Source: Dictyophora rubrovolvata | Lineage: Eukaryota > Basidiomycota > Agaricomycetes > Phallales > Phallaceae | Reading direction: 5' to 3' | NCBI GenBank assembly: GCA_029959195.1 | Contig: CP114123.1 | Span: 1,178,001-1,242,000 of the forward strand | Length of the DNA: 64,000 nt | In this document: positions 2,040 to 32,719 of the stretch, piece by piece | Layout of the letters: the number at the start of each line of letters is the position of its first letter | Numbering within the stretch: position 1 is the first letter of the stretch | Position numbers and translations under genes: made by a program | Notes under the pieces: model-generated | What the model saw: only the letters and a program-made list of their open reading frames with translations | The model's database searches: none | What the model was told of the DNA's origin: nothing

Positions 2040-3090
2040 TTGAATCTTTCCGGGACCTGGCTATGAGGCTTCATTAATCATTATGGACGCACTATCAATA
2101 ACTTTTTTGGGGAGATTATTCTGTATGTTGGGTCGTTCAAAATCATTCTGATGTAAAATATCTTGGGACTATGAAACTTTCGGATAGCGCCCTTCTCGTA
2201 AAGATATACTGGGCCCCGACTTTTGTTTCAATGTGAGAAGACATTCATTAATAGCATAGTTTAGTTTGTTAGGTCATGTAATCTTTAGATGGGACACACC
2301 CGCATGCTTAATTCATTCATGGCTTGTGGTCACTTGGTACCACCTACGGCATATGACAATGGATACTCGGACTACCGTAAAATCTGCATGCATGTCTCCT
2401 CGCTCAACTTCGTCGAAGTAGACTATTGTGAGGGAATTAAAATATGTGTGTGGTTCTAGCTGCGTGCCTACTAGTTAAAGAAGAGGCACTGGGCGCAGTG
2501 GAAAGCATGATTTGTGCTATCAATTTGGCAGGTCCTGTTTATTGAACAAGTCATGCTCAAATCGATCTTTCTAAGATTATGGGTATAAAGGAACGATCTT
2601 GAATATTTATGAAGATAGTGTGCATTCAGATCATGAGCACAAGCATGATCATGTCGAATACGATCATCCGCACCCACACACTAAGAGCCAAAGCGATCAA
2701 AGTCTCATTAGCCGGTAAACCTGCCGATGACTCGAGTCCAAACGGCTATTTATGTTGTAGCATAAAGGATACCAGAATCGCCGCTATCGAGAAATTAATA
2801 AGTCGAGAGCGCTTTTGATATTTTGCTTATAAAACTACCAGACTCGCCAATCCCGGTAAATGCCATCAATTTGAATTGGCACAGTTTTAGAATTAGATGT
2901 TGAAATTTGTTTCTAGGACTTATGTCTTGGAGGAACAAAGAATATGCCATGGGAATAAATTTCAGGCAGACGAAGACATAAAGTAGACATCAATTAAAGT
3001 TTTGTGAAATATCTAGTCTCCAAGTAAGTATGATCAAAAAAGAGTGCCCAGGCCCGAGGCCCATCGGAAAAGATCGTTGACGTCGATGCA
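2040..3090. other. Intergenic, no gene seen
   Basis: The interval between the unknown gene and the 3' end of the first DUF6533-like gene holds only short open frames on both strands with poor composition. I see no repeat, RNA gene or family signature. Similarity to unit B begins near 3096. Confidence 0.5.
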
Positions 3091-3234
3091 TGTGCCATGA
3101 GATAGATAAAGAAAACACGTATAAGGAAAGAACAAGAAACATTCTGGACAAACAACGGTATCTCGAAAAAATCGAAATGACAGACTACATAAGATAAATT
3201 GAACATCAACCAATGTAAAAATCACATAAACATT

Positions 3235-4970
3235 CTAGACCTCGGCCTCAGCAGCTTGAATGCTATCTGTAGATCCAGGTAAATTGTCATGATCACTGTC
3301 CCCAGCTTCCTCCTCCATATTTCTTTCAGGAGTGGCCATTTCCACAAGGAAGGATTGGTGCACGTGTTGAAGAACATTTGAAAATTGAAACGGTGGTAAA
3401 GACATTCGGCTAGCTTCAATTTTGGCCGAATTAAGGCGACGAAGATCGAGAGTGAAATTGGCCACTATATTTGCTGACAGACTTGTGATAGGTTAGTGAT
3501 AAAAGTATATGAGTTGAAACATCATCAACCTCACACATTTTGTATAACAGTATAACCCTGTGACACAAGAACCCGCTGGGAGGACTAATGGGGTTTAGTT
3601 AATGAACATGACGTTTGAGATCAAGGTAATTACACTTGTAAGCTAGAAAAAAAACGCAGTTCAAACTTGTCTCCACTTCACATGACTAAAAGCTTACCCA
3701 TTCAATGGGTGCATTGGCAACAGTAATGGTGATAACAAAACTTGTAAAAGCCATGACAAATTATGAGATGATTGACATGCAAGCTGAGTGCCTACCAACA
3801 TCTTAATATACCTGCAAGTTGCTCAATAACCCTTTCTCTAAAACTCATCCACACTTACTCTGTGTAAGAAGCACGGAAATGAGGCTTCTATCTTGAATTC
3901 CACCGTTGGATTTTAGTCTCCATACACCCCAGACTTTCCACATGCAAATGCCAAATATAAGTAAATCTGTAGAAATGGCGATGATATCACGGATAAAGTT
4001 AGCTAGGACCACTTTGGCTGACGACACACATGCAAATTTAGAATGAACCAAACACTCAGAAATGAGTATGAGTCATACTGGGGATTCCATTGCTTCAAAG
4101 TTTGTTAATGCATAAGGAACCTGAAGATTCCGCGTGAACTACAGACCTTGAACTACTAGCACATCCAGGAAATGTTATCACACCTATCAATAAAGAGTAA
4201 GCTTCACAATGATATAATATCTTCTTACCATATAAATACGAAATTAAGTAAGAAAAAAAACCAATGGCTAAAGCTGAAATGAGGATTTTATTTCCCTGGC
4301 ATATTGAATATGCTCGAATGATCAATAAGCCTAAGGTACATATGGCACATTAATAACTATCACACAAATGCCTTTTAAACAACCAAATGCTAGAACACAG
4401 ACCTTGAACACCGAAATATATTTGTAAGAAAAATAAAAAGTCTTGTATATCAGCGAGTATATTACAAGACCTTTGGGTTTCTGTTATTTCAGTTAATCTC
4501 AGGCGTGTATTGTATATTTTACCTTCCCGACTTCAAGAAATTTGGATATAACAACAATGAGAGATTGCAAGTACTAAGGCTTAGTATGCATATTCAACTC
4601 ACTGAGATAAAGCCTATTAGGATGCTAAGTCCCTGGTAAATCAAATTCCCATATCTTGCGAAAATGTACAATAGGGTAGGCAGGCTGAATGTCCTGAACC
4701 ATATATGCTCTTGTTCTTGCGAGAACGTTGTCAGAGTAGCATAGAAACTGAGTGCTGGAGGTTTGCTATCTTTGTAAGACTTTTTTTTGAGATGTCGGAT
4801 TGCTCACCCGTTGAACTGAAAATAACCAAGGTATAAACATAACTGATCCCATAATTAGATGAGATATAAAGACGGGTATAAAACAGAATTGACACATACA
4901 CTTCATAGGCCTCTTGAATAATGTCCGCACTGGCAGTTATAGCAGCTACGGTATTATTTGTGCTGTTCAT
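3235..4970 (-). CDS. DUF6533-like fungal membrane protein, copy A
   Basis: This is a multi-exon gene for an integral membrane protein of the type expanded in mushrooms (DUF6533/DUF6534-like); biochemical function is unknown for the family. The start is MNSTNNTVAAI at 4970. Downstream exons give the family's N-terminal signature (YATLTTFSQEQEHIW, then FSLPTLLYIFARYGNLI), a later helix ending in RAYSICQGNK (equivalent to the family's RTYAIYGRNK), then the helix IIAISTDLLIFGICMWKVW. The last exon (3465-3235) carries FTLDLRRLNSAKI, matching the usual C-terminal LDLR segment, plus an acidic tail. Exon joins were not fully resolved. Copy B at 25619-27302 is its paralogue in the same orientation. 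Several intronic frames are open, so exact splice sites need transcript data. Confidence 0.6.
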
Positions 4971-9043: not shown

Positions 9044-9546
9044 AGGTTCATTCTTACGATTAAATTTTGGTCAGCATTAGAACCGAAACTTTCAATACAG
9101 CGACAAATGCCAAGAAGGGGTGCTGTTTATAAATGATAGAGCTGGATTGCTTGCGCTGGAAGTCGACCAAAACTACTAAATATTTCTAGCGACATTATAG
9201 TTGTAATATCAGATTTACATATAATGTCAATGGATATCGGATTCAGAACACCATTGACGCAACATATTCTCGTTTCAGAAAGTGTTATTTATTTTTCTCC
9301 CCTCATTATCGCGGCGCATAACGTATCCATTTTGAAAGCTTACCTACCGAATCAATATGGGTTTTGTGCCCGGACTCGCGATGGGACTGGCTCATATCGA
9401 AAGGGGTTTATGTTAGGCAGATATATATTTCTGCACAAGCAATCCAGCTCTACTAGTATCATTTAAAAACCCCTTCTTGACATTTGTCGCTGTATTGAAA
9501 GCTTCGGTTCTAATGCTGATCAAAATTCAGTCGTAGGAATGAACCT
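9044..9546. mobile_element. Hairpin element with 113-bp inverted arms
   Basis: The arms 9044-9156 and 9433-9546 are inverted copies of each other, with some substitutions and small gaps. Both start aggttcatt and share agcattagaaccgaa and caatacagcgacaaatg. The 276-base interior holds one copy of a repeat also found at 13200-13345 and 28060-28250. No target-site duplication or transposase was seen, so its class is open: a non-autonomous foldback element is the simplest reading, an inverted duplication the alternative. It lies just upstream of the point where the GMC promoter becomes similar to unit B. The open frame at 9224-9466 inside it is probably chance. Confidence 0.65.
9228..9430 (+). 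repeat. Dispersed repeat, copy 1 (inside the hairpin)
   Basis: This unit of about 200 bases contains tggatatcggattcagaaca at the left and tgggttttgtgcccggactc and tatcgaaagg towards the right. It recurs, with indels, at 13200-13345 and 28060-28250. All three lie in the same orientation and flank GMC or DUF6533-like genes of the duplicated units. Confidence 0.7.
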
Positions 9547-9996
9547 CACCTCCACACGCCCAACCGGGGCAGGTAACAGGTTGTCTTCACATAATCTAGC
9601 TTCAGTTTCCATTCAGTCATCGGCGTCAAATCCTAAGCGGCATCGAGTGAATTGTTGTGATTGGACAATTCCAGGTTAGATCAGGTGAAAATCTTCTGCA
9701 CCCTCACTAGGCCTCACTAGCACTGCTCAGTTGGGCGTATAACAGTACACGCATTGGCCGGGGCAGGCGCCGTGACTCTGTACAATCGAGATTTTCTTCG
9801 ACAATTTTACCATTCCATTCGAATACTTCGCAACACGTGTTCATTCTACAATCTATCAATACAAGGAACTTTATTGGTCATGGTCGTTGCCGTTGACTGT
9901 TGGTCATACCCTCACTCCGCTATGACATCTTAGACTTGGATATGGCTAATGTGTCTCCCCTTGGGGACAGGCCTCACGAACGGTTGGTCTACATCC

Positions 9997-12941
9997 ATGA
10001 CTTCCTCTCTCTTTGCAACTATTGAACAGGTTTCTGGGACTTCTTTCGACGTGGTCATCGTGGGTAAGTACGCATTCGCGACTTAATATATATACCATCT
10101 GAAATAATTCCACAGGCGGAGGAGTGAAGTTCCACTTTTCGTTGTAGCACAGGTTGAATATTGAAATCTATTCTTTTTAAGACTGCAGGTTGCGCTTTGG
10201 CAGCGCGGCTCACTGAGAAATCAAACAATACTGTTCTTGTTCTTGAAGCTGGACCTGCTCACTTGAATGATGCGTCTATTGGTAGGATCTATCTTTTCAG
10301 GTACATTTGCCAATAAACAGATCCCTACCTGTTCAAATAGATACACCAGCCATACACTTCCAACAGCTGTTGAACCCTAATTATGATTGGATGTTTCCCA
10401 CCGTAAAAACAATTTTCAGAATTACCTGAAAGAAGAAAGAAATTGATTCGTATATAATTAGTCTCCACAGGGAAACCATATGCAAGGCAGAGAGATATGG
10501 AACAGGTATAGTTTTCTTCAATAACCATTCTATTGTTCCTGAACGCTCTTCATTACAGAGGTAAAGGACTCGGAGGGACCTCCAATATGAATGGTATGAT
10601 GTGGACTCGTCCCGGAAGGGAGGAAATTGACGGTAAGCCAAGCGATGATAATCCCAAATCTTCCTGATAGTAAAGTCATAGCTTGGGAAAGATTGGGAAA
10701 TCCTGGATGGAATTACGATAACTTTATTCCATATGTCAAACGAGCAGAAAAGTACCCCCGGATTATCCCGTGCTATTGCATACTATTGAGTCTTGACAAT
10801 TAATAGGTTCCATCCGCCAACGGAGACTACTATCAAGCGGGAGTTACTAGCGGTGGATCCAAATTGGTTCGGAAAAGATGGTAAATCGCAATATTTGACT
10901 ATGACATTTCTCTCGTCCTCACCTCTCTTCCTTATAAAAGGACCCATAGATATTTGTTACCCTGAATCCTCGACCAATGCCGGACCTATTATCCGAGATG
11001 TAAGTGAAGTCGTCGAAGAAAAACAATTGTACCAGCGCTGATTGCACCGTCATCACAGACGGTACGAAATCTTGGTATACCGCTCATTAATGATCCCGTA
11101 ATTCGGTATTCCACTTGGAGGGATAAAATTTGCTCACTCTATCGTCATAGGTCAATGGACGATATCGTGGAACATGGATTTCCCCCACCACCATTAATCC
11201 CCAAAGCCTTAGTCGCTCGACTTCATTCAAGGTACATAGCACCAAATTTTTTCGTCGTCTCACTGGGTCATGGTGTGACTATAGGGCTACATCCTGCCAA
11301 ATCTTGAGAGAAAAAATCTTTTTGTCCTTCCCAACGCATTTGTTACCAAACTTTTGTTCGATGAAACTACTGAGGGACCTATTACGGCCAAAGGGGTAGA
11401 GTTCCAATATGGAAACCAAATCCATACTGTTAGAGCCGCCAAGGAAGTGGTAATCTCCGCTGGGTAGTGTGGAATCCCTGTTTCGGCTCAGACTAGAAGC
11501 TAAAATAAATTCAGGTCACTCAACGCCTCATATTTTGGAGCTAAGCGGAATCGGAAACCCTTCAATTTTGGAGCAAGCCGGCATTCCTGTACATGTCAAT
11601 CTCCCTGGAGTCGGCACCAATTTGCAAGAGCATGGTGGAGACGTCAGTATTTGTTTTGGTAGGTCAATAGGTGTTCCTAAAATGTCTTATATCCGTGACG
11701 TGAGCGCGTATTCCTGTAGAAATTCGTCCCGATGGTGGTATTCAAAGCCTTGATCTTTTAAGTGATCCCATATTCGCTGCGCAACAGCACAAGCTTTAGT
11801 GAGTATCAGTTCTTTCCCTAGCTTGATTAACTAAATGAATATTGTCCAGTCAAGAAAGAAAACCAGGAAACCTGCTCGCCACTGTCCTAGGCAGCGTTAC
11901 CTACTTATCCCTGAAAAACCTCTTTGGTGATGCAGTTGAGAATACCATTTCCCGTCATGAGCAGTATCTTCAAGAGAATTCACCTAAAAGTGAAGGCCTC
12001 AAACACCAATATGAATTTCAACTAGAGCGGCTTCGTAATCAGGAATTGTCAGTCTTTGAGATTGTTGTGAATCCGAGTATTTCGGCAGGGAAGTGGTCTG
12101 GTAAGCTCGTTATGTTATTAAGAGTCTCAAAAAGGAATAATGTATTGTATTCTTTCAATAGACAGAGCGGAGCCGGGGAAGAGCTATGTGTCGTTCATCA
12201 TGATTCTAAATAACCCTTTCTCTAGAGGAACTATGGTATGTCTATTTCAAGTATGGAAATAGTCTTAATTGGAACTACCTGTTTTTAGCACGTCACTACG
12301 TCAGACCCATTTGCTGCGAGCAGAACCGACCCGCGAGACCTTGATTCTCCAATCGATCTGGACATTATGCTGGAAGGGTTCAAATTTGTGCGTGCATTGG
12401 CTAATCATGAGCCATTCAAAGGAGTTGTTGCCAAGGAAGTTAGCCCTGGCCCTGCTGTAAGCTCTGATGAAGATATCATCCGTGAGTGAAAACTACTAGA
12501 ATATTAGCCACGACAAGTGAGATGTAACGAAGCCTTCACCTTGTCTAGAGCATCTTAAAGACAATTTTTACACAAATTGGCGTGAGTAGCAGATTTTCTA
12601 TTTTAAATAGTCAAACTAATGGCACTGTGTACAGACACCGCTGGCACTGCCTCTATGCTTCCACGGGATAAAGGTGGCGTTGTCGACCCAAAGCTCAAGA
12701 TTTATGGCACAACGAACGTTCGGGTAGCTGATATATCTATTATTCCCCTTCACGTCGGTGCGCACACACAATGTAAGCTTTTTGTGGTTGGTATTAGTCT
12801 GAGAATGGCCATGCTAAATTGCATTCGTATCTCAGGCATGGCGTACGGAATCGGGGAAAAAGGTGTGTATTTTGGGAATTGAGAGCAAATGGTATTCACT
12901 GTTAAGTAGCTGCCGAGATAATCCTTGAAGAGCTTGTGTAA
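9997..12941 (+). pseudogene. GMC oxidoreductase, copy A, apparently frameshifted
   Basis: GMC proteins are FAD flavoenzymes that oxidise alcohols, sugars or aryl alcohols, often secreted in mushrooms. The start at 9997 ([11 protein letters not shown]) leads to the FAD-binding [19 protein letters not shown], formed across two introns with a spliced start at 10187. Later come GKGLGGTSNMNGMMWTRP (signature 1), [12 protein letters not shown], the [20 protein letters not shown] region (signature 2), [19 protein letters not shown] with the active-site His, [11 protein letters not shown], and a short last exon [10 protein letters not shown] ending at 12941. No signal peptide is evident, so it is probably intracellular. 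Compared with copy B, about two bases are missing near 11520-11524, just after an acceptor site, which breaks the frame in signature 2. I saw no alternative splice that restores it. Everything else looks intact, so it is a recent pseudogene or a sequence error. The strand is opposite to copy B. Confidence 0.75.
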
Positions 12942-13199
12942 TCCTGGAAGAAATTGTTTGCTATGTTGTAACTTTATCAGCTTTATACAAGCGCAGCAGT
13001 TGTAATATTAGTTCGTGAACAATACGTATCTTTTATCTAATTACTCGCTACTCGCCCCCGCTTTCAACATTATGAATGAATGTAGGTCAACTATGTGTTA
13101 TGGTTGATTATCTGAAGTCAGGTTGTTGCAACTGATAAACCGGGGAGAATACCACTACTCAGAATTTTTGGATCTTTTCCGTTTTCTATAATATGCAAT
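12942..13199. other. 3' flank of GMC copy A, no gene seen
   Basis: This stretch holds the 3' flank of GMC copy A, with only a few dozen bases similar to copy B after the stop codon. No other signal was seen. Confidence 0.4.
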
Positions 13200-13345
13200 G
13201 GTTTTCCTCATTATCGTGGCGCATAACGCATCCATTTTGGAAGCTTACCGAATCAATATGGGTTTTGTGCCCGGACTCGCGATGGGTCACTGCCATTCAT
13301 ATCGAAAGGAGTTTATCTTAAGCAGATACTTGCAAAAAATAGAAC
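13200..13345 (+). repeat. Dispersed repeat, copy 2
   Basis: This copy shares tgggttttgtgcccggactc and the tatcgaaaggagtttatctt end with the copies at 9228 and 28060. It continues rightwards into about 130 bases (to 13480) that also match unit B on either side of the foldback element there. The uninterrupted stretch near 13378-13400 is therefore the empty-site equivalent of that insertion. Confidence 0.7.
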
Positions 13346-13480
13346 TTTTGAAAATCCGTTGAGTTTGAGTTTCAGAGTGAGATGAGATTCATAAATTTGA
13401 AGTCTGAGGAAAAAAGTAGCATACGGGAGGGGTCTTTATATGTTTTATGAGTTTACAAAAAGGAAAAGAGATGAGTCATA

Positions 13481-14079
13481 AAGAGTCATAAAGGGCTCCT
13501 GTCACTGTGGAAAAAACCGCGCCGGAATTGGTCTGGGACTATTATTGGATTTACCAATGGTACACCCAGAATGTCCACCCAGAAGTCCCACTATAAATTC
13601 AGTGATGGTACCACAATTTTTTGAGTGGTTCTTCACTCTTTTTCCACTCCTGTTTTTCTGGAAAGCATATTTTTAAAAATTTGGAACTTCCAGCCTAATT
13701 CAGTGGTTTTCACAATAAAGCACATCTGGTATTCGAGCTCAGTTATCTGTTTTTCTTTTAGCTCACTTATCACTTATTTATTGGATATAAAATTTATTTT
13801 ATTATTATTATATTAAACTAGATAATTATTTAAGTACAAATTAATTCTAATATCTAACTTTGGTAATGGATTAACACTAAATAAGTAGATAATACATGTT
13901 GCAAAAACCTAAACAGGTTAATTAACCCAAACTAGATGTGTGAGACATGCGAGGTGCAGCTTAGGATAATTAAGGGTTAATTAACCATTCAAAGAATCAA
14001 CATACCTCATAGCCATCTAAAAAACCTGAATTCCTGAATTAGAGTAAATTAACCCTCTTTGACACAAATTTGAGATTTC
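13481..14079. other. AT-rich spacer, no gene seen
   Basis: The stretch is very AT-rich around 13740-13870. No frame with coding character was seen. The right end is the target site of the solo LTR that follows. Confidence 0.45.
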
Positions 14080-14949: not shown

Positions 14950-15679
14950 TGGAAATTTCAACTACAGATGAGATATACTTTTTCTTTGGTATTCAAGTTT
15001 TTAAGCTCACTCCAAGTGTATGTATGTTTTTGAAATCATTGTGTATATTGAAAATGCTGATTATATACATAGTGCAAGTTATATGTAAGGGATTTGTTTT
15101 AGATTTAGAATAAACTTGACTCCTAATAAAATATAAAAGAGTTTTTGTTTAGGGATTGTTCAGCAACTAAAAGTCCTGTTATTGAAGGTGAGACACTTGA
15201 AGGAAGATTTGAACTTAAGAATTAAGTTCAAATTAGTAGAGATAGATAGGGACTTATTACTAAGTCCTTGAGAATAGAGAAAGATAAGAGGAAAAAAGAC
15301 CAATTTGATTGGTAAGCACTTTGGTGCACAACAGTAGTTACAAGATAGATTATTTACAAGAAAAATGAGCCCCTATTTATACACCTTGAGCAAGTACAAA
15401 TAGCTCCAAACATTAGTAAGAGAAACATCATGTGAGAGATAAGAAATTACTTAAAAAGGAAGTGAATGAATAATAGTGGATCAGGGAAAATTATAGTGAG
15501 ACAGGGAAGTGGAGAGAGATGATAAGAAAATAAAAGGGTTCCTGGAACTAAGTCATCTGACTGTTCCTGAAAGATAAGATACATTACAAATAAAGGATTA
15601 TTAAAGCAAGCAGGAACTAAAAAAAGAATAAAGGAAATACTTTTTTTTGGGTAGATAAGGGAGGAAATCATGAAATACA
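14950..15679. other. AT-rich stretch, possible old LTR
   Basis: No gene was seen. On the minus strand a TATAAATAG box near 15375-15385 suggests the promoter of a worn LTR, which could belong to the Gypsy relic to the right, but I could not define its ends. Confidence 0.3.
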
Positions 15680-18120
15680 TGACAATGAGGATATTGTCAA
15701 TATACACGGCGATGACACCTTCTGAGATCATGTCCTCAAAGATTTTGTTCATCATCGTCTGGAAGGTGGCTGGACTGTTAGTAAGGCCGAAAAACATCAC
15801 TAAAGATTCGAAAAGGCCTCTGTTAGTACGAAACGTGGCCTTCCACTCATCGCCTTCCTTTATCCACACATTGTTGTAGCCCCATTGAACATCGAGCTTT
15901 GTGAAGTAGTGGGCACCCTGCAACTTATTGACGAGTTCCGGGATAAGGGGCAATGGATAACGGTTCTTGATCGTCATCACATTCAGAGCCTGGTAATCCT
16001 GAATGAGACGAAGGGAACCATCCTTCTTTTTGATAAAGAAGACTGGTGAGGCCATTGGCAATTTTGAGAGTCGGATCCATCCTGATTTGAGGTTTTCCTC
16101 TAGAAACGCATCCAACTCAGCCTGTTCCTTCGGTGACAGCGGGTAGATCTTACTGGATTTGGGCTCCAAACCAGAGACGAATTCTATTGGGTGATCCCAT
16201 TTCTTTGACATCGGTAGCAAATCAAAGGATTCTTTGGAAAAGATGTCGTCAAAGTCATGGAATTGTTCAGGCACGATATCACGAAAGCCCTTGAGGGCTG
16301 GAGCATCTAAATTCCTGGCGTGAGCTTGAGCAAGTCTTTGTGAGATGGTCTCGGTTGCGCCAACATGATGGAACTTGGGTCCAGTGTCAACCATCGAAAT
16401 ACCAAAGAGTCGATCGCCATCCTCAAGCTGGAGCTCATCTTCCATGTCTGCCAGATCAGGCATGTCAGGATCTTCAGCCTCAGTGTTGTCAAGCTTCACA
16501 TCTGCAGACATTCGGATCTGTCAAAAGGAACGTTTAGTGCGATGACCCGAAGGCCAGCTAGGCGCACAGGAATGACATTGGGGACTACAACGCGTCAGTT
16601 CTACCTCTCCAGCAGTATAATCAATCACCGGATTGTGGGCCTTGAACCAAGGTAGCCCCAGTAATACGGGATATTTCCCAAGTGTGGTAACAGCAAATAG
16701 GACACGTTCAGAATGGGACCGATACCTCATAACCAGATCAACCACATGTGTGATAGCACCAGCCTGGTTGGGTGTACCATCAACATTGAATACAGGAATA
16801 GGTTTCAGGAGTTTGACAGTCGGGAGTCGATGTCTCTCAATGAACTCGCGGTTCAAGAACATACCACTAGCACCCATATCAAGCATGGCTTTGCTGGCGA
16901 TCAAATCTCCTGTGTCAGTACTCTGGAGCTCTACTGAGATTTCAAGTTTCTGAGTACTGGCAGTGGCTGCGAGTCGATATTCAGAGGGTAATGACTTCTG
17001 CTTCGAAGTCAAGAGTCGTGGAGGTGGTGGCATAGAAGAAGGTGTAGGGAGAGGAGGGTTTTTAGGAGATACAGCAGGGGTAATAGGATTCGAATTACTA
17101 TTATCATTTTGTTCACGATCTATGTACAAAACATTGAATCTATTGAATGTTGGCAATGAGGGTGTATCCTTCACTTGTTGCCTTCCTGAAAATCCTCTGT
17201 TGCTACTGGAGCAGGAGTCTCTTCTTCCTCTGTTGGTCCAGGCCCTGCACGACTCTGCACTTCTGCAACATCCTTCTGGGCAAGGAGCAGTTTGACAAGG
17301 TTGTCAATCTCGTCTGTGTTCACGAAATGAATGTCATGCGTATGAGGACAATCGCGCATGAGATGCCCAGCTTGTCCACAATGGTAACATCTAGTGGATT
17401 CTGCAGTCATCCGTCGACATGTGGCATCAACATCCATTGGGTCATGACGTTGTTGAGGAGGTTGAACCGGAATCGATGGCCTAGGCGGAGCAGCAGCAAA
17501 CCCAGGAGCAACTGGCCTAGGAGGTGGGAATGGAGGTGGTTGGTACTGGGGGATAGCAGGTCTTAGAGGCAGGAAGGGTGCCAGTCTAGGACGAGACATA
17601 GGAGCCATCGTTAAGGAATTAGGAATCGACGGGGTTGGGAGTTGGTGACGTTGAGTGGCACTAAAAGCTTCATTTGCTCTTCTATCTTGATCAAAAATGC
17701 ACACAGCCTTGACCCAGCCTTCGAAATCCTCGTATGTGGGTCAGCTCTGCATGGTAGCGATCTTGGACTGAATTGTCGGGTCTAGTCCTTGTCGAAAGTG
17801 TGTTGTGATGGCGAAGCCATCCATGAAGCCTGCACGTTCTATGAGGACATTGAAGGAGTCCACATAATCCTCTACAGTTCAACCTCCTTGAGCATATCTG
17901 CCAGATAGGAGGAGGTTGAGGGCATCATCGCGTTCGGTTAAGGGCAGAAATTCCTCTTCGAACTTGAGTCGGAATTCTCCCCAAGTTGCGAAAGGAATGA
18001 TACCTGCAAGGTACTTCTGTAGCAGGCTATTGGCAAAAACATGGGCGTGGCCGTTGTTCATATACGATAGTGTCCAAATGATCATTTCTTGGTCGGTCAC
18101 GAAATCCTTGCTACATGCGC
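15680..18120 (-). mobile_element. Truncated Ty3/Gypsy retrotransposon relic
   Basis: On the minus strand, right to left, are a gag region (18100-17171) with a CCHC zinc knuckle (CYHCGQAGHLMRDC), an aspartic protease region (17174-16521, around AMLDMGASGMFLN), and the first half of a reverse transcriptase (16511-15680). The last has PLPLIPELVNKLQGAHYFTK and FGLTNSPATFQTMMNKIF. The order gag-protease-RT and the RT motifs place it in Ty3/Gypsy. The rest of RT, RNase H and integrase are absent, and no matching pair of LTRs was found. It is broken, with several interruptions in addition to the missing 3' half, and is a fossil. The parts are still easy to read, so it is not very old. Confidence 0.85.
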
Positions 18121-20274: not shown

Positions 20275-20860
20275 GAGGCTGTGGTGTATCGGTTAAGTTT
20301 TTGGTAGTTTGAAACTCCGCTTTGAACCAAAATTCGGAACGTTTCCTTATTAGGAAGATTTTGGTGCGCGACAGCGCTCATATAGATCTGGACAGAGTTC
20401 CAGAACATGCGTCCTTTGTTTCTATCACCATCAAAGGACTGAGGCACTGCAGGACGGGTATTACGAGAATTTTGTGAATCTCACGTGGAAGGTGGAGCTG
20501 ATGCTCAGACAGGGGGAACATTGGCAGATTGAGGGTTTACTGGAGGTTCTGACAGAGAGTCAGACGGGAGTTGAGGTTGAAGAAACAGTTCAAGACAAGA
20601 TAGGAGTTATTCGAGTTGAGTGTTGCACGTAAGGAAATTTTGTTCCATAGCCACAAGGCGTTGCTCTAGATTCAGAGTAGCCTGGTTGGGTTCCATGATA
20701 GTAAAAATAGCCTAGGTGCACAGTAAGAAGGATGGGAAGGGTCAAGTTATAGGCGGAGCACGAGGAAAGACTCGAGATGGAACGAGTCGTTGTCGAGGAC
20801 AATTTTCCGAAGGTGGACATTGATAGAAATGACCAGTCCCGGGGTAGAAGTTTGTTCTAC

Positions 20861-21265
20861 TGTCAGAGCTACTCACTCAGACTAGAGGGAGGGGATCCTA
20901 AGCAAAATATATTCTAGGAATAATACTAACTCACCTAGAGGGAGGGGATCCTAAGAGAACAAACTTAGGGATCCCTCCTCTAGGGCTACTAACTATATAC
21001 TATGAAAAATGGCGAAGGCCACACATAGCCTTCAGTTCGTGGACTGGGTGCAGATACGTGCCGTTCCCAGACTTTTAGCTGGGACCTAGGCCATGGCTCT
21101 GACGAGAACGGGCGCTCAGCGCCTGTTGAAGGGAAATGGGAATATGGAAGGAGAGGGAAATGCAAGAGATGGGATAGAATATGAGAAATATGGAAATAAA
21201 TAAAATAGACTAGAACCAAAGATAAATGTAGGAAAATAAGGGGACAGCGCTAGCATACCCTGACA
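20861..21265 (+). mobile_element. Solo LTR, family beta, 405 bp, in small-gene copy 3
   Basis: The element runs from TGTCAGAGCTAC to ACCCTGACA. It cuts the reading frame of small-gene copy 3. The flanking 5-mers do not match, so a deletion or rearrangement may have followed. Inside it, a perfect 21-base direct repeat (20882-20902 and 20935-20955) contains GGATCC. The second unit also pairs with 20964-20983 to form a hairpin. Other copies lie at 22386-22792 and, inverted, at 24119-24524. Ends only, of the same kind, occur at about 21805-21829 and 25437-25471. Confidence 0.8.
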
Positions 21266-22273: not shown

Positions 22274-22385
22274 AGGGATGTTAAGTACCAATTCTCGGGT
22301 ATTGACAACAAATGTATATACATTAATAATTGTATCTAATGATAATACAAACATCACCGTAATGTCGTAGAGCGCGGTCTCAACC

Positions 22386-22792
22386 TGTCAGAGCTACTCA
22401 CTCAGACTAGAGGGAGGGGATCCTAAGTAAAATGTATTTTGGAAAAATACTAACTCACCTAGAGGGAGGGGATCCTAAGAGAACAAACTTAGGGATCCCT
22501 CCTCTAGGGCTACTAACTATATACTATGAAAAAACGGTGAAGGCCATACGCGGCCTTCGGTTAATAGACTGGGCGCAGATACACACCAGTCCTGGATCTT
22601 TAGCCAGAGCCTAGGCCATGGCTCTGATGGGAACGGGCACTCAGCACCTGTTGGAGGGAAAGAAGGGAATACGGAAGGAAGGGGGAATGCAGGAAATGGG
22701 ATAAAATACAAGAAATAAGGAAATGAATAAGATAAACCAGAACCAAAGATAAACGAAGGAAAATAAGGGGACAATGCTAGTGTACCCTGACA
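22386..22792 (+). mobile_element. Solo LTR, family beta, 407 bp, nested in alpha
   Basis: The element runs from TGTCAGAGCTAC to ACCCTGACA and is flanked by the 5-bp duplication CAACC (22381-22385, 22793-22797). The uninterrupted version of the site is visible in the other alpha copy near 14186. Confidence 0.9.
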
Positions 22793-23934: not shown

Positions 23935-24118
23935 CTTCGTGAAACAGCGATGAAGTCTGACAAGACTTCCGGTCGTAGCGTCTGCAAAGTGATCATGATA
24001 AGATAATGTTTAAGTACAATACAATAAGGGAATATGATAAGAAATCTGTATTGCTAGTGATGTCATGAATCGGATCATGACAAGGGAGGAAAACCTAAGA
24101 GAACAAGCTTAGGGTTTT

Positions 24119-24524
24119 TGTCAGGGTACGCTAACGCCGTCCCTTTTGTTTCTTCCATTTATCTTCGGTTCCTATCTATTTTATTTATTCCCCCACTTCT
24201 TGTATTTTATCCCACTCCTTGTCTTCCCCTTTCCTTCCATATTTCCATTTTTCCCTTTAACAGGCACTGAGCGCCCATTCCCATCAGAGCCATGGCCTAG
24301 GCCCTGGCTAAAAGTCTGGGACCGGTGCGTATCTGCACCCAGTCCATGAACTGACAGCCACATATGGCCTTCACCGTTTTTCATAGTATATAGTTAGTAG
24401 CCCTAGAGGAGGGATCCCTAAGTTTGTTCTCTTAGGATCCCCTCCCTCTAGGTGAGTTAGTATTTTTCCCAAAATATAATTGCTTAGGATCCCCTCCCTC
24501 TAGTCTGAGTGAGTACCCCTGACA
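24119..24524 (-). mobile_element. Solo LTR, family beta, inverted, 406 bp
   Basis: Read on the minus strand it begins TGTCAGGGGTAC and ends CCCTGACA, matching the beta copies. The duplication GTTTT flanks it perfectly (24114-24118, 24525-24529). It sits in an older relic whose remaining bases (24088-24118 and 24530-24557) still show a beta-like hairpin, cctaagagaacaagcttagg. Confidence 0.88.
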
Positions 24525-24557
24525 GTTTTCCCTCTAGAGATAGAGACTATATATAAT

Positions 24558-28059: not shown

Positions 28060-28250
28060 CATGGATATCGGATTCAGAACATCACACAACATATTCTTGT
28101 TTCAGAAAGTTTTATTTGTTTTTCTTTCCTTTCCTCATTATCATGGCGCATGGGTTTTGTGCCCGGACTCGCAATAGGTCACCGGTCACCGTTGGTTCAT
28201 ATCGAAAGGAGTTTATCTTAGGCAGATACTTGCGGAAAATAGAACTTTGA
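28060..28250 (+). repeat. Dispersed repeat, copy 3
   Basis: This copy has tggatatcggattcagaaca at its left end and gtgcccggactcgcaatagg and tatcgaaaggagtttatctt at the right, as in the copies at 9228 and 13200. In unit B it lies between the DUF6533-like and GMC genes; in unit A the matching copy lies beyond the GMC gene. Confidence 0.7.
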
Positions 28251-28287
28251 AAATGCGTCCAGTCTAAGTTTGAGAGTGAGATGAGAG

Positions 28288-28689
28288 CAGACTCCTACCC
28301 AATCGCTTTTCACATTTTAGCGACTATCCCAGGGTGCGGGGTTTTAATAATATGGGTGTATATGGGTGTTGTGCGTGAATTTTAGAACTCCGGAACTTTA
28401 TTGTCGCAGAAAATGTGAAAAGACGACTGGCAAAAAATGTTAAGCAAGCATGCCATGTTTGGCCCACTTGAGTGGGCTTTGTCCAACCGACGCATCACCT
28501 GCGCATCCAGTGGGCCAAACATGGCACGCTCGCTTAACATTTTTTGCCAGTCGTCTTTTCACATTTTCTGCGACAATAAAGTTCCAGAGTTCTAAAATTC
28601 ACGCACAACACCCATATACACCCATATTATTAAAACCCCGCACCCTGGGATAGTCGCTAAAATGTGAAAAGCGATTGGGTAGGAGTCTG
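28288..28689. mobile_element. 402-bp foldback DNA transposon, Mutator-like
   Basis: Two 181-base arms (28288-28468 and 28509-28689) are inverted copies with three differences that I can count, all transitions, around a 40-base loop. The ends read CAGACTCCTACCC. A perfect 9-bp duplication AGATGAGAG flanks it (28279-28287 and 28690-28698). A 9-bp duplication with long terminal inverted repeats is characteristic of Mutator-like elements; assignment from size alone is inference. It codes for nothing and would depend on a transposase elsewhere. The high match between arms suggests a young insertion. The paralogous sequence near 13378-13400 lacks it. Confidence 0.9.
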
Positions 28690-28698
28690 AGATGAGAG

Positions 28699-28924
28699 TC
28701 GTAAATTTGAAGTCTGAGGGAAAAAGTAGTATACGGGAGGGATTTTTATATGTTTTATGAGTTTACAAAAAGGGAAAAGAGATGAATCATAAAGAGTCAA
28801 GGATGAGTCAAAAAATAAAGAGACATGAGTTAGAGAAATGATTTAGAATTGTGTACGGCCCGCTAACGAGTCGTTGCGGCGATTCTCGAGTAAGCCGACC
28901 CTTACAACAGCATAACTTCCAGGA
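28699..28924. other. Spacer between foldback element and GMC copy B
   Basis: 28699-28830 continues the match with 13390-13500 of unit A. The rest is the 3' flank of the inverted GMC gene. Confidence 0.45.
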
Positions 28925-31861
28925 TTACACAAGCTCTTCAAGGATTATCTCGGCAGCTACGAAATAATGTTAACATTAAATTCCATTTTCTCTCAATTCT
29001 CAAAATGCACACCTTTTTCTCCGATTCCGTATGCCATACCTAAAACACAAATGCAATTTAGCACGGTCATTCTCAGACAATTAAAAAAGTTTACATTGTG
29101 TGTGAACGCCGACGTGAAGGGGAATAATAGATATATCAACCACCCGAATGTTCGTCGTGCCATAAACCTTTAGCTTTGGGTCGACGACACCACCTTTATC
29201 GCGCGGAAGCATAGATGCGGTTCCAGCGGTGTCTGTACATCCTCAGTGTTTATTAGTCCGACTGCTAAAATAGAAAATCGTGTTACTAACGCCAAACTGT
29301 GGAAAAATTGTCTTTGAGATGCTCTAGACAATGGTAAGGCTTCGTTACATTTCACTTAATACTAGTATTTTTCACTCACGGATGATATCTTCGTCAGAGG
29401 TTACAGCAGGACCAGGGCTAACCTCCTTGACAACAACTCCTTTGAATGGCTCATGATTAGCCAATTCACGCACAAACTTGAATCCTTCCAGCATAATGTC
29501 CACGTCAATTTGAGAATCAAGGTCTCGCGGGTCGATCCTGCTCGCAGCAAATGGGTCTGACGTGGTGACGTGCTAAAAACGAATAGTTCCGATTAAGATC
29601 ATTTCCACGCTTGAGATAGACATACCACTGTTCCTCTCGAGAAAGGGTTATTTAGAATCGTGAAGAACGACACGTAGTTCTTCCCCGGCTCCGCTCTGTC
29701 TATTGAAAGAATACAATACATTATTTCCCTTTACTTCATAACATAACGAACTTACCAGACCACTTCCCTGCCGAAATACTCGGATTCGCAACAACCTCAA
29801 AGACCGACAATTCCTGATTACGAAGCCGCTCTAGTTGAAATTCATACTGGTGCTTGAGGCCTTCACTTTTAGGTGAATCCTCTTGAAGATACCGCTCATG
29901 ACGGGCAATGATCTTTTCAACTGCATCACCAAAGAGGTTCTTCAAGGATAAGTAAGTAGCGCCGCCTAGGACAGTGGCGAGCATGCTTTCTGGGTTTCTT
30001 TCCTGACTGGACAATATTCATTTAGCTAATCAAGCTGGGGAAAGAACTGATGCTCACTAAAGCTTGTGCTGTTGCGCAGCGAATGTGGGATCACTTAAAA
30101 GATCAAGGCTTTGAATACCACCATCGGGACGAATTTCTACAGGAATACGCGCTCACGTCGCGGATATACGACATTTTAGCAACACCTATTGACCTACCAA
30201 AACAAATACTGACGTCTCCACCATGCTCTTGCAAATTGGTGCCGACTCCAGGGAGATTGACATGTACAGGAATACCGACCTGCTCCAAAACTGAAGGGTT
30301 TCCGATTCCGCTTAGCTCCAAAATTTGAGGCGTTTTGAGTGACCTGAATTTATTTTAGCTTCTAGTCTGAGCTGAAACAGGGATTAGACACTACCCAGAG
30401 GAAATTACCACTTCCTTGGCGGCTCTAACAGTATGGATTTGGTTTCCATATTGGAACTCTACCCCTTTGGCCGTAATAGGTCCCTCAGTAGTTTCATCGA
30501 ACAAAAGTTTGGTAACAAATGCGTTGGGAAGGACAAAAAGATTTTTTCTCTCAAGATTTGGCAGGATGTAGCCCTATAGTCACACCATGACCCAGTGAGA
30601 CGACGAAAAAATTTGGTGCTATGTACCTTGAATGAAGTCGAGCGACTAAGGCTTTGAGGATTAACGGTGGTGGGCGAAATCCATGTTCCACAATATCGTC
30701 CGTTGACCTATGACGATACAGTGAGTGAGCAAATTTTATCCCTCCAAGTGGAATACCGAATTACGGAATCATTGATGAGCGGTATACCAAGATTTCGTAT
30801 CGTCTGTGATGATGGGCAATCAGCGCTAGTACAATTGTCGTTCTTCGACGACTTCACTTACATCTCGGACAACGGGCCCGGCACCGGTCGAGGATTCAGG
30901 GTAACAAATATCTATGGGTCCTTTTATAAGAAAGCGAGGTGAGGACGAGAGAACTGTGATAATGAAATATTTTGATTTACCATCTTTTCCGAACCAATTT
31001 GGATCCACCGCTAGTAACTCCCGCTTGATAGTAGTCTCCGTTGGCGGATGGAACCTATTAATTGTCAAGACTCAATAGCATGCAATAGCACGGGATAATC
31101 CGGGGGTACTTTTCTGCTCGTTTGACATATGGAATAAAGTTATCGTAATTCCATCCAGGATTTCCCAATCTTTCCCAAGCTATGACTTTACTATCAGGAA
31201 GATTTGGCATTATCATCGCTTGGCTTACCGTCAATTTCCTCCTTCCCGGGACGAGTCCACATCATAGCGTTCATATTAGAGGATCCTCCGAGTCCTTTAC
31301 CCCTGTAATGAAGAGCGTTCAGGAACAATAGAATGGTTATTGAAGAAAACTATACCTGTTCCATATCTCTCTGCCTTGCATATGATTTCTCTGTGGAGAC
31401 TAATTATATACGAATCAATTTCTTTCTTCTTTCAGGTAATTCTGAAAATTGTTTTTACGGTAAGGAACATCCAATCATAATTAGGGTTTAACAGTTGTTG
31501 GAAGTGTGTGGCCGGTGTATCTATTTGAACAGGTAGGGATCTGTTGGCAAATGTACAGAAAAAGATAGATCCCACCGATAGATGCATCATTCAAGTGAGC
31601 AGGTCCAGCTTCAAGAACAAGAACAGTATTGTTTAATTTCTCAGTGAGCCGCGCTGCCAAAGCGCAACCTGCAGTCTTGAAAAGAATAGATTTCAATATT
31701 CAACCAGTGTTACAACGAAAAGTGGAACTTCACTCCTCCGCCTGTGGAATTTCAGATGGTATACATATATATTAAGTCGTGAATGCGTACTTACCCACGA
31801 TGACTACATCGAAAGAAATCCCAGAAACCTGTTCAATAGTTGCAAAGAGAGAGGAAGTCAT
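28925..31861 (-). CDS. GMC-family FAD oxidoreductase, copy B
   Basis: Predicted to oxidise an alcohol or similar substrate with FAD; the substrate is unknown. It starts at 31861 ([14 protein letters not shown]). The FAD-binding [16 protein letters not shown] is built across two introns. GMC signature 1 ([16 protein letters not shown] region near 31240) and an intact signature 2 ([14 protein letters not shown], near 30330) follow, then [13 protein letters not shown] and the active-site His in [15 protein letters not shown], with the last exon [10 protein letters not shown] ending at 28925. More than a dozen short introns interrupt it. There is no obvious signal peptide. Copy A at 9997-12941 is very similar but has lost the frame in signature 2, so this is the copy likely to work. 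It is divergent from the Sec14 gene at 32720, leaving an 858-base shared promoter region. The start is set by position before the Rossmann motif. Confidence 0.82.
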
Positions 31862-32719
31862 GGATGTAGTAGACCAACCGTTCGCGAGGCCTGTCCCCAA
31901 GGGGAGACACATTAACCATATGTTTAAGATGTCATAACCGAGTGAGAGTATGACCAACAGTCAACGGCAATAACCATGGCCAATGAAGTTCCTTGTATTG
32001 ATAGATTGTAGAATGAACACGTGTTGCGAAGTATTTGAACGTGGTAAAGTTGTCGAAGGAAATCTCGATTTGTACCGAGTCTGCCCAATGCGTGTACTGT
32101 TATACGCCCAACTGAGGGTGCAGAAGATTTTCACCTGATGTAGCAAAACCTCCCAATCACATCGATGCCGCTTAGGATTTGACGCCGATGACTGAATAGA
32201 AACTTAACTGAGCTGAAGCCAGATTATGTGAAGACAACCTGCCCCCGGTTGGGCGTGTGGGGGTGAGAATTAGTCCAGTCGGTGTTCAAGAGGTATAGCA
32301 CATCTTCACATGATATGCTAACATCTCTGTGGGCCAAGAAGGTTAAGAAGACGCTGTAGCTTGAGCATTCATATATTCATAAACCGAAGCATGAGACGAG
32401 AGGCGAGCTTTGAGAACGTTGCCAACCAATAGATAAATATCCCCAACCAGATAAGCTTGAAATAACTGATTTAACCTTATCTTTTTCCTTAAAGAATTCT
32501 CGTTCTTAAACGTCAAACACTGGAAGAAAAAGAAAAATCAGGTAAGATGCAGCGAACTGTCTCCGTTAGCGCTCGTTTCGCCGCTGCGCATATTTGAGAA
32601 TGCCGTGCCCGAGTCCGAACTCAAAAGATTGACATGTGTACGGTTTCCGCGGAAACCGTACATGTGGCAGACGGCTGCGGACCGGGCGAATATCTGTTTG
32701 TCAATCAACTCAACACCCA
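31862..32719. promoter_or_regulatory. Shared divergent promoter region, GMC B / Sec14 B
   Basis: This region separates two divergently transcribed genes. Its left part (to about 32270) is similar to the GMC copy A promoter (9550-9996, inverted). The right part contains the palindrome listed separately. No clear TATA box was chosen for either gene. Confidence 0.5.
32637..32662. promoter_or_regulatory. Perfect 26-bp palindrome
   Basis: The half-site tgtacggtttccg is followed directly by its inverse, centred between 32649 and 32650. It contains CGG and CCG triplets in inverted arrangement and lies 58 bases before the Sec14 B start codon. Fungal Zn2Cys6 factors often bind inverted CGG triplets, so an operator role is possible but inferred. 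No equivalent was seen before the Sec14 A gene. Confidence 0.55.

Follow-up and report, generated by a model that had tools for sequence, protein, structure and literature searches.

A low-copy family of non-autonomous foldback MITEs with 9-bp target site duplications in Dictyophora rubrovolvata

A 402-bp element in a 64,000-nucleotide stretch of DNA from Dictyophora rubrovolvata (the whole stretch analysed, hereafter "the window") is, in our judgement from its sequence, a real non-autonomous foldback MITE, and it represents a new family within a known type of element. The most probable reading, to which we assign a probability of roughly 80%, is that this MITE was moved by a transposase that makes a 9-base staggered cut in the target, most likely a MULE transposase, and that the enzyme's own element has been lost or has decayed ends. 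The window copy has nearly identical arms, related copies are present elsewhere in the genome, and a related site lacking the element was found in the same window.

The element occupies window positions 28288-28689; a 40-base loop separates its two inverted arms, each 181 bases long. Its features are as follows (strand given where one applies):

28279..28287, left target site duplication, AGATGAGAG, identical to 28690-28698
28288..28468, plus strand, left arm of 181 bases, which starts CAGACTCCTACCC and has 3 differences relative to the right arm
28306..28318, plus strand, inner inverted repeat of the left arm, CTTTTCACATTTT, with its partner at 28410-28422
28410..28422, minus strand, partner of the inner inverted repeat of the left arm, AAAATGTGAAAAG
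28469..28508, loop of 40 bases, probably the remainder of a longer interior after internal deletion
28509..28689, minus strand, right arm of 181 bases, which finishes in GGGTAGGAGTCTG
28690..28698, right target site duplication, AGATGAGAG

The size of the element, the arms with their three differences, the loop and the perfect 9-bp duplication had been given in a first-pass annotation, and all were confirmed to the base. The arms account for 362 of the 402 bases, i.e., long inverted repeats make up most of the element. Their three mismatches are at arm positions 104, 159 and 163, and a repeat search lengthened the arms to 184 nt at 98%. The ends are symmetric (CAG...CTG). When duplication lengths of 4 to 14 were tried at these ends, only 9 was free of mismatches. 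The bare direct repeat around the element is 11 bases long (TGAGATGAGAG) because the TG to the left of the duplication is the same as the last two bases of the element; the duplication was set at 9 rather than 11 because the ends are symmetric and other copies show 9. Recurrence of a 9-mer at the same spacing was found for 4 of 63,580 start positions in the window, up to three of them inside the 11-base repeat. Within each arm, some of the outer portion recurs in inverted orientation (arm bases 19-31 against 123-135, 13/13 matching), and the element is therefore a nested palindrome. The 40 bases between the arms leave no room for a transposase gene. Folded as RNA, the strand of the element gave -345.8 kcal/mol, whereas 100 shuffled versions gave -108.65 ± 5.17 kcal/mol (z = -45.9). 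If transcribed, the element would give a hairpin of ~180 base pairs, which might serve as a source of double-stranded RNA.

The arm or its ends were present at no fewer than 16 loci (at least 16) on eight contigs of the 28.2-Mb genome. A DNA similarity search of the genome revealed 27 matching pieces at 11 loci, and an end-pattern search (15 sites; none in the backward control) added five loci. These locus counts are lower bounds, and two of the loci, C6:618433 and C8:658728, are linked to the family mainly through the 23-base end. A search for diverged relatives gave 10 matches, one of them at a new place, a further fragment at C8:924658. Two ends and a readable 9-bp duplication were found at 4 of the 16 loci, including the window, with three duplications matching at 9/9 bases and one at 8/9. 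The copies outside the window that are used below are:

C11:537941-538533, two-ended copy of 593 bp, GGAAAGAAC twice
C6:203905-204147, two-ended copy of 243 bp, AGCTCAGCA twice
C10:1023394-1023443, two-ended copy of 50 bp, duplication GATCTATAT/GATCTATAC, matching at 8/9
about C7:1288563-1288654, decayed copy of ~92 bp, both arms left and left end damaged, duplication 7/9 as read by eye
C11:1443664, solo arm with the full 181 bases
C3:512969, arm ending where 39 bases of a local repeat start
C7:1784485, tandem pair, 64-bp

The longest two-ended copy found was the 593-bp one, and the 50-bp copy retains only ~24 bases of each end. Broken copies (single arms, parts, fragments) accounted for 11 of the 16 loci. 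The C11:1443664 solo arm was tried as the end of a long element and rejected: its 9-base flank occurred only once (≤1 mismatch) in 8.5 kb. We read it as a broken copy rather than as the end of an element of up to ~4 kb. The arm is thus not confined to the window, and duplication length is constant, at 9 bp in 4/4 two-ended copies with readable flanks; this length rests on the four copies plus one decayed copy, and is within the 8-11 bp range of MULEs (PMC6446971). Neither of the two outcomes named in the first-pass annotation as refuting, a lack of other copies or duplications of another length, was therefore observed.

In the window element, bases 183-402, including most of the loop, gave a 220-nt match at 95% to one side of the 593-bp copy. 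This match runs beyond the arm into the loop, and the 402-bp copy is probably related by internal deletion to some longer form resembling the 593-bp C11 copy. Part of the interior of the 593-bp copy resembles the copy at C1:1976k, where BLAST extended a 77% match ~120 bases into the interior; an interior-only search with the 593-bp copy scored just the copy itself and missed this match.

Several further features were observed. A repeat of ~408 bp, read as LTRs, has three copies in the window (20860-21265, 22385-22792 and 24115-24525) and is found close to some of the foldback loci as well (C11:537404, C11:1440246 and 1442194, C3:514245); its first 39 bases adjoin the foldback arm at C3:513135/513136. 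Arms break at position 181 or 182 in three loci (L009 4344, window 28468, L011 4135). In the 593-bp copy, pairing of the two sides spans ~198 bases and runs past this 181/182 break, which is possibly a weak point of the palindrome. The decayed arm at L013 4073 (C5:1192073) adjoins a minus-strand open frame (2762-4063) that encodes zinc fingers; the frame's MOV-10 helical match is weak (22.9 bits vs. a Pfam cut-off of 24.8 bits). The minus strand of the window has a reverse transcriptase domain (PF00078) at 15450-16520.

The duplications of MULEs measure 8-11 bp, and their inverted ends, which range from 14 to 500 bp, are commonly hundreds of bp long (PMC6446971), and foldback elements are mostly placed in Mutator (PMC4079207). 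The Mutator-like label that the element had been given is likely but unproven: the 9-bp duplications and long arms are the reason for it, whereas three MULE loci lack these ends. In the mechanism that we propose, a transposase from another element, acting in trans, would have recognised the ends and inserted the MITE; a target cut with a 9-base stagger, followed by gap filling, would have produced the 9-bp duplication. The most likely enzyme is a transposase of the Mutator (MULE) superfamily; the element that encodes it may have been lost from the strain or may have ends too decayed for recognition.

MULE domains were found at three loci in the genome, two of them over the Pfam cut-off. At the best locus, the domain lies in a frame of 262 residues, after which comes a frame of 361 residues that has no Pfam match; this second frame has what we take to be a SWIM-like motif. 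The gene (L036 4560-6466; C8:1921060-1922966) has no recognisable inverted ends within 10 kb and may be a remnant or a domesticated gene. End-pattern searches yielded 15 sites (backward control 0), 17 sites (control 0) and 23 sites (control 18); none of these was at any of the three MULE loci, the nearest being ~96 kb off on C8. In the 23-site search, 16 sites had at most one mismatch and seven had two; one of these seven is a known arm (C3:512957), and the rest are not separable from noise. Neither the 402- nor the 593-bp copy had a BLAST match in the 9.4-10 kb surrounding any of the MULE loci. Inverted ends with an 8-11 bp duplication were sought around the MULE genes (9.4-10 kb each), and none was convincing. 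The candidates numbered 2, 7 and 2, the best having 4 mismatches in all and the other printed ones 5; judged without a shuffled control, they are taken as chance. A MULE transposase with ends matching the element, a search proposed along with the label, was thus not found at the three MULE loci (0/3) or the end-pattern sites. Pfam analysis of 10 of the 35 open frames of ≥130 residues near L008, L009, L011, L012, L013 and L014 revealed retrotransposon and host domains and no DNA transposase. Domain and end-pattern searches of the 28.2-Mb genome found no autonomous (self-mobile) copy.

The absence of foldback ends from all three MULE loci speaks for an alternative, in which the transposase that moved the MITE came from outside the MULE superfamily (hAT, KDZ or other). 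Six matches to the KDZ transposase domain and six to the hAT transposase domain are present in the genome, and the ends of the element start with CAG, as those of hAT elements often do. However, hAT and Zisupton duplications are usually 8 bp, whereas the four readable duplications here are 9 bp, and comparison of the KDZ and hAT matches with the foldback end-match coordinates revealed no co-location; these matches, like the MULE loci, are away from every end match. We consider this alternative unlikely, and a MULE transposase remains the preferred source of movement.

The family was compared with known systems. Tetris, a foldback element of Drosophila virilis, likewise lacks a conserved open frame and an autonomous copy as described, and its 8-10 bp duplications and three structurally complete copies liken it to the family here (PMC4079207). 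Tetris was assigned to Mutator by its duplication length and by the usual placing of foldbacks (PMC4079207). It has internal tandem 220-bp repeats, with possible homogenisation within elements (PMC4079207), and our family has one inner 13-bp inverted repeat per arm; the two are likened here by description. Tm1, a Mutator/Foldback element of root-knot nematodes, shares variable-length inverted ends, MITE-like members and duplications most often of 9 bp with the present family; it has transposase-encoding members, of which none was found here, and its ends are mostly tandem repeats of 13-15 bp (PMC3169594). With respect to the MULE superfamily as a whole, the 9-bp duplication and the inverted ends are within the stated range (PMC6446971); in contrast, no transposase was found in the family here, and its ends have no match near the three MULE-domain loci of the genome. 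The MarorhAT non-autonomous elements of the mushroom Marasmius oreades are likewise small non-autonomous DNA transposons (597-631 bp) whose ends are common to a longer relative; they differ in being of hAT type with a known autonomous partner, and a foldback structure is not part of the description used here (PMC9674265).

A light search of the open-access literature revealed no reports of foldback elements in basidiomycetes, no paper that by its title concerned a foldback MITE of a fungus, and one survey of MULEs in Basidiomycota. The suggestion that this class is seldom described in mushrooms therefore agrees with the search as regards foldbacks; it does not extend to MITEs as such, which have already been reported from mushrooms and are not new there.

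The order of events at the insertion site was deduced from two related units in the window, unit B being the one interrupted by the element. The corresponding site in unit A is:

13380..13388, paralogous empty site with a single target copy, AGATGAGAT, from alignment of the joined flanks

This site is uninterrupted, as the first-pass annotation had described for the unit A flank, and agrees with the duplication at the element at 8/9 bases. Joined flanks with both copies of the duplication aligned to 13296-13488 at 87% (176/203), with one gap of 9 bases inside the duplication and two single-base gaps elsewhere. Joined flanks with one copy aligned to 13258-13488 at 87.5%. Because the related site is uninterrupted and has the target once, the element was most likely inserted later than the unit duplication, in agreement with the original proposal. 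The duplication itself proved less simple than had been proposed. The main duplicated body (9545-12950 vs. 28916-32267) is 90.0% identical over 3445 columns, with 212 mismatches and 132 gap positions, and is inverted; in contrast, the stretch around the insertion (13258-13488 vs. 28150-28799) is in direct orientation. Units A and B are therefore not simple copies, and the duplication came with, or was succeeded by, rearrangement. The left flank of the element has a third partial copy at 9230-9423, which stops short of the insertion point. A direct repeat (9301-9423/13206-13328; 127 columns, 88%) brackets unit A, and the combination of an inverted body with a direct right flank between the two units points to a complex duplication history.

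The uninterrupted site could instead reflect precise excision of an element already present before the duplication. Excision of Muta1, an active MULE, was mostly precise in a yeast assay when duplications flanked the element (PMC5225508), so such an event has a precedent. However, the arms have only 3 differences in 181 bases, all at CpG, as against the 212 mismatches and 132 gap positions in the 3445 columns of the body; this argument is weaker if gene conversion keeps the arms alike. We regard prior excision as very improbable and insertion after the duplication as the preferred order. An in-place inverted duplication by replication error, with the 9-bp repeat as a by-product, was rejected: template switching can form long near-perfect inverted repeats, but the same ends and arms occur on other contigs, each time with another 9-bp duplication, an empty related site exists, and the other two-ended copies are decisive.

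Arm differences were compared among seven arms from four loci (window, C11:537941, C11:1443664 and C6:203905, with the C6 copy compared over just 112 bases); the remaining 12 loci, which are fragments, short forms or too diverged, were set aside. Within the first 181 bases, 11 sites were variable; every one of them is a transition, and 8 fall at CpG. CpG-capable positions, i.e., those with CG in any arm, make up 20 of the 181 positions and hold these 8 variable sites (binomial p = 2.7e-6, an optimistic value because related arms are not independent). These findings suggest that after insertion the copies decayed mainly by CpG transitions, via cytosine methylation; such decay predicts that the elements are methylated. 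CpG-biased transposon decay was described in three basidiomycetes having only a Masc2-like Dnmt1 gene; the bias was strong in one of them and weak in the other two (PMC4352252). All three arm differences of the window copy are at CpG, and for this reason it looks young. The window insertion is apparently recent, which supports the earlier description of a young foldback MITE. There were 3 differences between the arms of the window copy, 3 between those of the 593-bp copy and 2-5 between arms of different elements (over 181 bases). Arms differ within an element about as much as between elements, as would be expected if the copies arose at roughly the same time from a source whose arms were nearly identical.

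Palindromes of the family form a size series of 593, 402, 243, about 92 and 50 bp. Elements differ from one another at arm positions 63, 80 and 162, and the two arms of an element agree there where both are present. The 50-bp copy has changes of its own on both arms at positions 8 and 20, and the 92-bp copy at position 12. Of the 8 sites at which the two arms of an element disagree, 7 are private to one arm; the exception is position 119, at which the 593-bp copy has A on one arm and the C6 copy has A on the only arm that extends this far. This pattern, from few sites of which 80 and 162 are CpG and thus prone to repeated change, suggests that the arms were alike when inserted. A tentative explanation, which we consider possible though not probable, is that one arm was recopied from the other at or before each move (e.g., through a hairpin intermediate), and that either abutting ends of ~24 bases can still be moved or long palindromes collapse centrally after landing.

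If the 50-bp member moved at that size, the transposase would need no more than about 24 bases of end sequence. The family adds to fungal genomes a low-copy foldback family with 9-bp duplications, together with an empty related site that informs on the order of events. The more interesting part of the finding is that the series of sizes reaches down to 50 bp and that the arms appear to be alike at insertion.
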